DNA of 55,829 bases from an uncultured Candidatus Saccharibacteria bacterium (GTDB lineage: Bacteria; Patescibacteriota; Saccharimonadia; Saccharimonadales; Saccharimonadaceae). Positions within the stretch are counted from its first letter, which is position 1. Each line of letters begins with the position of its first letter. Positions 21,101 to 22,021 of the stretch are shown here, piece after piece. The position numbers and the translations under genes were made by a program. The notes below the pieces were generated by a model, which searched no databases, was not told the origin of the DNA, and saw only the letters and a list, made by a program, of their open reading frames with translations. The stretch is from the NCBI GenBank assembly GCA_947166405.1, contig CAMVEA010000003.1, forward strand, positions 1 to 55,829, given 5' to 3'.

Positions 21101-21436
21101 ATGGACGACTATGATGAATATGATGACGATTTCGGAATCGACGATGAAGAAGATTCCGGACTATACGATGATGATTATGATGATGGTTTTGACGATGAAG
21201 ATGATGACGAAGCCAGTGATGATAACCTCTCAGAAAAAGACGACTACTACGATACTTCATACTACGAGAATCTCGGTATGGAAGATGGCCGATTCGACAA
21301 GGATCACCACATGCTTCCCCACTCCGGATTCGGCTCATCTGTCAATTTAGACGAGCTAAGCGACGACGAACGCGAAGCCTACGAAATGGGCTATAGTCTA
21401 GGCGCCGAAGATTATGATCTTAGTGACGACGAGTAA
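21101..21436 (+). CDS. Highly acidic small protein
   Basis: A 111-residue protein with an Asp/Glu-dominated first half (MDDYDEYDDDFGIDDEEDSG) and a more ordered C-terminal part (SVNLDELSDDEREAYEMGYS then LGAEDYDLSDDE). The calculated charge is strongly negative. It lacks a signal peptide, membrane segment or cysteine pairs. It could mimic nucleic acid or bind a basic partner, but I do not recognise a family. The gene has its own leaderless promoter. Coding is supported by that promoter and by the well-formed C-terminal half. Confidence 0.7.
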   Translation: MDDYDEYDDDFGIDDEEDSGLYDDDYDDGFDDEDDDEASDDNLSEKDDYYDTSYYENLGMEDGRFDKDHHMLPHSGFGSSVNLDELSDDEREAYEMGYSLGAEDYDLSDDE

Positions 21437-21528
21437 GACGCCTTTTTATATAATTCATTTTTACATCTTGTATAAGGTGGCCTACACGAGCTACCTAGGA
21501 TTTTATCTAATTCAGAATCGAATTATTC

Positions 21529-21567
21529 TTGACTGGACCCTGCTACCATTGCTATAATGGTAGCAGG
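21529..21567 (+). promoter_or_regulatory. Strong promoter with a perfect 12-bp dyad around its -10 box
   Basis: TTGACT (21529) and TATAAT (21553) are 18 bases apart, with TGC just before the -10. The -10 lies at the centre of a perfect inverted repeat, CCTGCTACCATT-gctat-AATGGTAGCAGG (21539-21567). The dyad could be an operator for a repressor. Confidence 0.55.
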
Positions 21568-21641
21568 AGGCATGAGAGTCTAGAATCATGCCTGGGTTTG
21601 TGAATGTTACTGTTCGTCTACGACGACAGTAACTTTTTTTG
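21565..21641 (+). ncRNA. Candidate small RNA of about 76 bases
   Basis: A transcript from the promoter above would run about 76 bases to a strong intrinsic terminator. It would contain an eight-base-pair hairpin (AGGCATGA/TCATGCCT), a single-stranded AGGAGG near its 5' end, and the terminator stem. Its 3' third is antisense to the end of a small ORF on the minus strand (21607-21690). No protein longer than three residues fits inside it. Confidence 0.5.
21606..21640 (+). terminator. Rho-independent terminator of the candidate small RNA
   Basis: GTTACTGT/ACAGTAAC plus CGTC/GACG form a 12-base-pair stem with one bulged T and a three-base loop, followed by seven T. Confidence 0.85.
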
Positions 21642-21690
21642 TTTTTGGCTTGCGCCGTAGTTTGAAGTAGAACATGCATTCTATTTCCAT
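21607..21690 (-). CDS. 27-residue small ORF with strong ribosome-binding site
   Basis: ATG 21690 is preceded by AAAGGAGGTGCGCT. The peptide begins MEIECMFYFKLRRKPK and ends TKKVTVVVDEQ: basic in the middle, with a short hydrophobic start. It is read from a structured leader of about 220 bases and overlaps the terminator arm of an opposite-strand small RNA. No homology is recognised. The layout is reminiscent of type I toxin loci or leader-peptide regulation, but the peptide is not a typical hydrophobic toxin. Confidence 0.4.
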   Translation of the reverse strand: MEIECMFYFKLRRKPKTKKVTVVVDEQ

Positions 21691-21912
21691 AGCGCACCTC
21701 CTTTCTGTTTTTGTTTTCGCAAAACTTGGGAGGACGGCAACCAAGGTTATCTAGAAACCAACGTATAAATCCCCCCTTTATGGAACGGACGCACCGCACC
21801 GCGCTGTAGCCTCTAATTTCTAGCTCACATTCGCCATTTGTCGCCCGTTCCCTTGTAGGGGAATCTATATTACTCGCAAACAAAACTTCTCCAACCCACC
21901 TACTTTCTAGCA
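21691..21912 (-). promoter_or_regulatory. Structured 5' leader of the 27-residue ORF
   Basis: About 220 noncoding bases lie between a TATA-type -10 (around 21921-21929) and the small ORF. A CCTCC (about 21730-21735 on the minus strand) can pair with the ORF's GGAGG, enclosing a GTTTT-GCG-AAAAC hairpin, which would hide the ribosome-binding site. Another hairpin is TTCCC/GGGAA (around 21848-21863). A 133-codon open frame crosses the region but has no family features, so I treat it as RNA. Confidence 0.4.
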
Positions 21913-22021
21913 TACTCCAATATATAATACAACCCCCAACCTACCCAGATCTCGAGCATAACTGTTTTCACCTCAGTATTTTTCACTAGTTTCGCTTCCG
22001 CTAAAACCCCATTCCGCTCTG
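21913..22021. other. Intergenic region without a recognised gene
   Basis: This stretch is C-rich and holds the probable promoter of the minus-strand leader. I see no coding frame here. Confidence 0.4.

Follow-up and report, generated by a model that had tools for sequence, protein, structure and literature searches.

A candidate stand-alone type I toxin-antitoxin-like module in Candidatus Saccharibacteria and its putatively self-silencing mRNA

What is encoded where a promoter centred on an inverted repeat drives a short putative RNA towards a facing 27-residue ORF in the genome of an uncultured Candidatus Saccharibacteria bacterium? The locus was singled out by an original prediction made on the window (the whole stretch of DNA analysed, 55,829 nucleotides), and the readings offered for it were a type I toxin-like locus, leader-peptide regulation and an unknown riboregulator. 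All evidence on the module presented here is comparative. Judged by comparison with its relatives, the locus belongs to a family of convergent modules, ~380 bp long and extending from the sRNA promoter to the mRNA promoter. We consider it probable that this is a type I toxin-antitoxin-like module that stands alone and whose mRNA silences itself, with transcription and toxicity inferred.

The sRNA promoter on the + strand (21529..21558) reads TTGACT-N18-TATAAT, with the -35 box at 21529-21534, the -10 box at 21553-21558 and a spacer of 18 nt. It was present as originally described, with TG upstream, and matches the consensus at 11 of 12 positions. Similar sequence lies upstream of other sRNA copies, 65 of 83 of which have a promoter match of at least 9/12. 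The strong terminator placed ~76 bases downstream by the original prediction was also recovered (21606..21642, +): a GTTACTGT..ACAGTAAC stem followed by a T run sets the RNA end at ~21642, ~77 nt past the expected start. A simple terminator scan missed it because the stem is interrupted. The putative antitoxin is thus an antisense sRNA of ~77 nt (21565..21642, +), which also contains hairpin 1 (21568..21593, +) with the loop CUAG at 21580-21583, a YUNR motif.

The structure of this sRNA is well supported by comparison. A covariance search of relatives had been named as the check, with a lack of conserved structure or covariation as the refuting outcome, and strong covariation was found. Double changes occur in 6/6 hairpin 1 pairs and in 9/11 terminator-stem pairs. 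In the alignment of 80 distinct copies, 93.7% of cells are paired; this alignment was fitted to the covariance model, which inflates the percentage. The number of double-change cells in the stems is 247, compared with 65 in shuffles and 11-27 with slid partners, and two-sided stem changes are also visible by eye in MAFFT alignments. The sRNA strand folds better than all shuffles (z = -3.6). The G-U versus A-C asymmetry, which bears on the strand that carries hairpin 1, amounts to 7 versus 12 cells and does not distinguish the strands. No known RNA family had been apparent, and none emerged from an Rfam covariance search of the locus, which gave no family at curated cut-offs and only chance-level matches at relaxed thresholds.

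The 12-bp inverted repeat over the sRNA -10 box (21539..21567, no strand assigned) is perfect as proposed, its arms (21539-21550 and 21556-21567) being 100% complementary over 12 nt, with the -10 box sitting over the centre and the right arm. The repeat covaries over 13 copies and some subgroups do not keep it; compensated changes are seen between many copies. It could be an operator, or a hairpin near the mRNA 3' end.

At the DNA level, homologues were detected in 10 of the 60 nearest genomes, each of them belonging to the same genus. With the sRNA covariance model, 106 copies were found in 59 of 174 genomes of this one Candidatus Saccharibacteria genus (one copy in 31 genomes, two in 17 and three to six in eleven). 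Many copies lie near contig ends, which makes these numbers lower bounds. Samples taken across the order and the phylum added only two sRNA matches, of which one lay in a sister genus and the other was due to chance. When that sister genus was searched on its own, 8 of the 41 genomes gave matches (E up to 0.05), and several members have the same architecture with diverged peptides. A weak match outside the family, in genome G472, has no leader match and was taken as chance. Among named records, those that carry the terminator motif are assemblies of Candidatus Saccharibacteria, and almost all come from the ruminant gut. That a promoter, hairpins and a short ORF merely came to lie together is conceivable for any one locus, since random sequence often contains such features singly; a chance arrangement, to which we give practically no credence, is excluded by the conservation, covariation and coding selection seen over >80 copies.

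In pairwise comparisons, similarity between copies starts at the sRNA -35 box and stops at the mRNA -35 box, ~380 bp away; the comparison supports a unit that runs from promoter to promoter. The neighbours differ between copies and, judged from sequence, include lepA-like and smpB-like genes, tsf/frr and many others. The tsf-frr junction is occupied in genomes G161 and G182 and empty in G140, where the tsf and frr matches lie 14 bp apart. With neighbours this varied, leader-peptide control of an adjacent gene is disfavoured. The type I toxin-like reading is supported by covariation, coding selection, Shine-Dalgarno (SD) sequestration and one-sided loss. Phage and plasmid collections held no match to the module; two pattern matches in viral contigs fail the model, and a phage or plasmid origin was rejected.

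The opposing 27-residue ORF was confirmed on the - strand, read from 21690 to 21607. Its product, MEIECMFYFKLRRKPKTKKVTVVVDEQ, is the putative toxin. Related peptides of 24-28 aa are encoded opposite the sRNA in other copies; they comprise MEIEFYFRFKRKPKTKKVTVVVEDEQ and its variants as well as two further subgroups. The complement of the sRNA terminator stem encodes the C-terminal part of the ORF. As the terminator's complement makes up the ORF's 3' half, the selection test was limited to the codons before this region. Single-change codons in nearest-neighbour pairs comprise 104 synonymous and 56 nonsynonymous cases, where ~18% synonymous would be expected without selection. Third positions are the most variable and insertions are of whole codons. 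Purifying selection on the codons of the 24-28-codon ORF that lie outside the sRNA complement is well supported by these comparisons. The small protein-coding gene that a type I toxin requires is thereby available, its toxicity being putative.

The peptides are cationic and not hydrophobic (mean hydropathy -0.46, best 15-residue window 1.47). Structure prediction gave, with low confidence (mean pLDDT 68), a short cationic amphipathic β-hairpin rather than a membrane helix. Searches against Pfam and NCBIfam profiles returned no match to the peptide. Most type I toxins are hydrophobic membrane helices, which is usual and not required, as SymE and RalR lack one. The peptide does not qualify as a hydrophobic α-helical membrane toxin, which is a point against the toxin reading.

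The putative mRNA promoter (21904..21932, -) is TTGTAT-N17-TAGAAA with the extended -10 element TGC. Its assignment rests on sequence and on the end of copy-to-copy similarity at this point; relatives keep TTGNAA..TATAAT. The predicted leader of ~207 nt (21691..21897, -; 5' end GGGUUGGAG) was described by leader model R2, and the mRNA strand folds better than all shuffles (z = -4.9). Four strands of the leader, all on the - strand, can form three helices. The 5' strand UAUAGAUUCCCC (21858..21869) pairs with the G-tract strand GGGGGGAUUUAUA (21764..21776) in P1, the G-tract with the anti-SD CCTCCC (21728..21733) in P2, and the anti-SD with the SD AAAGGAGGT (21696..21704) in P3. P1 and P3 can coexist, and P2 excludes both. 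For each helix, cognate partners bind better than locus-shuffled ones (0/5000 each), and double changes are also seen in P1; three control pairings show nothing. The three exclusive helices are well supported by this comparison. An RNAalifold consensus of the leader gave only P1 or P2, the helices being mutually exclusive. Relatedness of the copies is not fully corrected for by the shuffle tests, and the main safeguards are the unmatched control pairings and the locus-specific loops within genomes described below.

The suggestion that CCTCC can hide GGAGG was borne out: CCTCCC at 21733-21728 and the SD at 21704-21696 are present and their pairing is matched locus by locus, so that conserved hiding of the SD by the anti-SD in the leader is well supported. 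The best fold of the window copy hides the SD. When the helices were enforced in this copy, P1 with P3 and P2 were nearly equal in energy. In silico removal of the 5' strand allowed P2 to form and did not clearly free the SD. Since other pairings still cover the SD once the 5' strand is deleted, the direction of the leader switch is inferred.

A mini-hairpin of the leader (21745..21759, -) carries a CUAG loop at 21754-21751. Kissing of this loop with the sRNA loop was the first idea and was refuted by the flanking bases. The two loops are identical at 55 of 62 flanking bases (25.8 when shuffled; 0/5000), and their complementarity is at chance level. Being identical to the sRNA loop, the leader loop would pair with the antisense of sRNA hairpin 1, that is with the mRNA's own 3' part. 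This inferred 3' region (21565..21606, -), assigned from the loop identity, is the antisense of the sRNA 5' half and would be a target of both the sRNA and the leader loop. The leader loop and mRNA 3' loop are predicted to form a duplex of -7.82 kcal/mol, compared with -5.29 kcal/mol for shuffled partners, and the loop match is well supported. It implies that the mRNA runs past the stop codon into the complement of the sRNA; such a transcript was not observed. No mRNA terminator was recognised and the mRNA 3' end is inferred solely from the loop match. The two RNAs had been expected to be complementary over ~34 bases. A complementary overlap stands, and its extent would be the whole ~77-nt sRNA if the mRNA continues past the stop codon. 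A GGUUGG-like sequence is found between the sRNA hairpins (21594-21605) and at the mRNA 5' end (21897-21889). The pair does not covary and may be a second 5'-3' contact.

The same loops could be explained by one protein that binds both leader and sRNA, the sRNA acting as a CsrB-like decoy: each RNA has a hairpin with a nearly invariant CUAG loop and GGUU nearby. The matching is locus-specific even within a genome, with full pairing in 24 of 27 cognate combinations versus 16 of 42 cross-locus ones. Loops that differ between copies of one genome argue against a shared protein ligand, which gives no reason for locus-specific changes. CCAG occurs in both leader and sRNA of L139, as does CUGG in those of L143, and the exceptions are mostly leader U versus sRNA C, a U.G pair if the mRNA pairs with itself. 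We regard a shared protein as improbable.

The leader model gave 81 matches in the genus, 77 of which have the sRNA adjoining; of the remaining four, one is cut off by a contig end and three are marginal. No confident case of the mRNA side without the sRNA was found among these 81. The sRNA occurs without the leader in 29 of 106 matches, ~19 of them confident. The deletions take the SD and the ORF start, while the sRNA promoter and terminator stay. The comparison thus supports a loss that is confined to the mRNA side, and a type I toxin-antitoxin pair is the best fit because of this one-sidedness. Decay of the toxin side with the antitoxin kept is expected of such a pair and is not proof of toxicity. 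In genome G012, the copies L075, L076 and L077 share one common deletion of the SD and ORF start, with both promoters kept, as if the peptide-less form had multiplied by itself.

Two other readings bear on this pattern. The module might be a non-toxic one in which an RNA switch controls a regulatory or structural small peptide; the peptide is soluble-looking, with a predicted β-hairpin and no toxin family match, and its toxicity is untested. A peptide with a cellular task would be unusual in being found in only a third of the genomes at variable copy number, without a fixed neighbour and with the ORF repeatedly lost while the sRNA is kept, and we consider a non-toxic role unlikely. Alternatively, the unit could be a mobile, MITE-like non-coding repeat with the ORF and sRNA as by-products, as dispersed copies, occupied and empty sites and the three ORF-less sites in G012 with their common deletion might suggest. 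Against this, the boundaries of similarity between copies are the two promoters and not terminal repeats, purifying selection acts on the ORF and the functional pairings of the RNAs have been maintained; such a repeat appears very improbable to us.

The preferred reading of a self-silencing toxin-antitoxin-like module can be put as a proposed cycle. The - strand gene would give the mRNA for the short cationic peptide and the + strand gene the small antisense RNA that acts as antitoxin. In the nascent mRNA the 5' strand would capture the G-tract (P1), so that the anti-SD stays available for pairing with the SD (P3), and in this proposal the mRNA is silent from the outset. Once the transcript is complete, the leader CUAG loop would pair with the matching loop in the mRNA's own 3' part and hold the closed form. 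Loss or rearrangement of the 5' or 3' end would let the G-tract take the anti-SD (P2), after which the SD could become accessible. With its perfect complementarity to the mRNA 3' part and to the ORF's 3' half, the sRNA would pair with the mRNA over ~77 nt, and RNase III, which is encoded in the genome, would destroy the duplex before peptide accumulates. The order of events and cleavage of the duplex are inferred. The arrangement has what a type I antitoxin needs as an antisense RNA, with convergent promoters on opposite strands and a common sequence conserved over the family, the transcripts themselves not having been observed.

By analogy, the best explanation combines a hok/AapA-like logic with a TxpA/BsrG-like geometry. 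In hok/Sok, the 5' and 3' ends of the mRNA interact and so hold it inactive by fold-back inhibition, and there are exclusive helices, as proposed for the module. Hok differs from the module peptide in its greater length, its membrane location and its coupling to mok, and Sok targets the leader. The aapA/IsoA systems of Helicobacter pylori resemble the module in a peptide of ~30 aa, an antisense sRNA of ~80 nt from the opposite strand, several chromosomal copies and an mRNA that anti-SD pairing and a long-distance contact between its 5' and 3' ends keep closed (PMC6733600); in the module this contact is inferred. For aapA3/IsoA3 an inert full-length mRNA, the 5'-3' interaction and activating 3' truncation have been shown (PMC6733600). 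In aapA/IsoA, the SD region lies under the antisense RNA and the SD is masked by the long-distance pairing (PMC6733600). The module sRNA instead lies opposite the mRNA 3' part and the ORF's 3' half, and the inferred 5'-3' contact is CUAG loop pairing. The module sRNA does not reach over the toxin SD and start as in aapA/IsoA, ending at 21642 with the start codon at 21690 and the SD at 21696-21704. The module peptide also lacks the transmembrane helix of the aapA/IsoA toxins, and no homology is claimed.

The txpA/RatA and bsrG/SR4 systems of Bacillus subtilis are likewise convergent genes with RNAs that overlap at their 3' ends, where the antitoxins bind (PMC6562991), and the convergent geometry of the module meets this arrangement. 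They share with the proposed module RNase III decay and YUNR loops, a motif described for antisense pairing that CUAG fits; bsrG/SR4 also involves a change around the SD (PMC6562991). Their toxins are membrane peptides of <60 aa and their overlaps 100-140 bp (PMC6562991), in contrast to the short cationic peptide and ~77-bp overlap of the module. In timP/TimR, exclusive mRNA conformations and a long-range loop contact decide translation, as envisaged here; its pseudoknot marks the active form without processing (PMC11228461), whereas the direction of the module's switch is only inferred.

Cultured Saccharibacteria are episymbionts. Full-text searches, which did not cover most subscription journals, gave no report of a type I toxin-antitoxin system in Saccharibacteria or Patescibacteria. 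A 2025 article states that no phyla other than Proteobacteria, Firmicutes and Tenericutes were known to have type I systems before the cyanobacterial one it proposes, and attributes the narrow range of phyla to search bias towards known toxin features (PMC12390103). Whether the module represents a new class of type I toxin-antitoxin system in Patescibacteria/CPR, with a cationic amphipathic β-hairpin toxin, a three-helix leader switch, a leader loop docked on the mRNA's own 3' part and solitary spread in reduced Saccharibacteria genomes, seems to us evenly balanced. If so, it would be a case from the candidate phyla radiation found through RNA architecture and not through likeness to toxins, with a peptide of a type that differs from the usual membrane helices, and multi-copy antisense-RNA toxin modules would be retained in genomes of ~1 Mb or less. 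In plain terms, the module would be a small gene pair that has been copied repeatedly in ultra-small gut bacteria, an mRNA for a tiny peptide faced by a complementary sRNA, with transcripts yet to be observed. Its >80 natural variants are on offer for testing self-silencing of mRNA, and the covariance model is a route to such loci in uncultured bacteria.

The flanks of the copies contain further features. A strongly acidic ORF (MDDYDEYDDD..., 21101-21436) without a Pfam match adjoins the module in the window, and related acidic ORFs lie beside it, on differing sides, in L088, L101 and L147. A role of the acidic neighbour as fixed partner was rejected as neighbours vary. The 17-bp motif AGGATAAGCCTAGGCGG, which is absent from the window, lies beside several copies (L010:1348-1364, L015:1256-1272 and L020:1373-1389), with variants near others, and is possibly a separate dispersed repeat. 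A dispersed inverted repeat, AATGGCACCGTAAGG...CCTTGCGGTGCCATTTTT, is found beside some copies, in the flanks of L070, L073 and L122 (e.g. L122:3514-3530).
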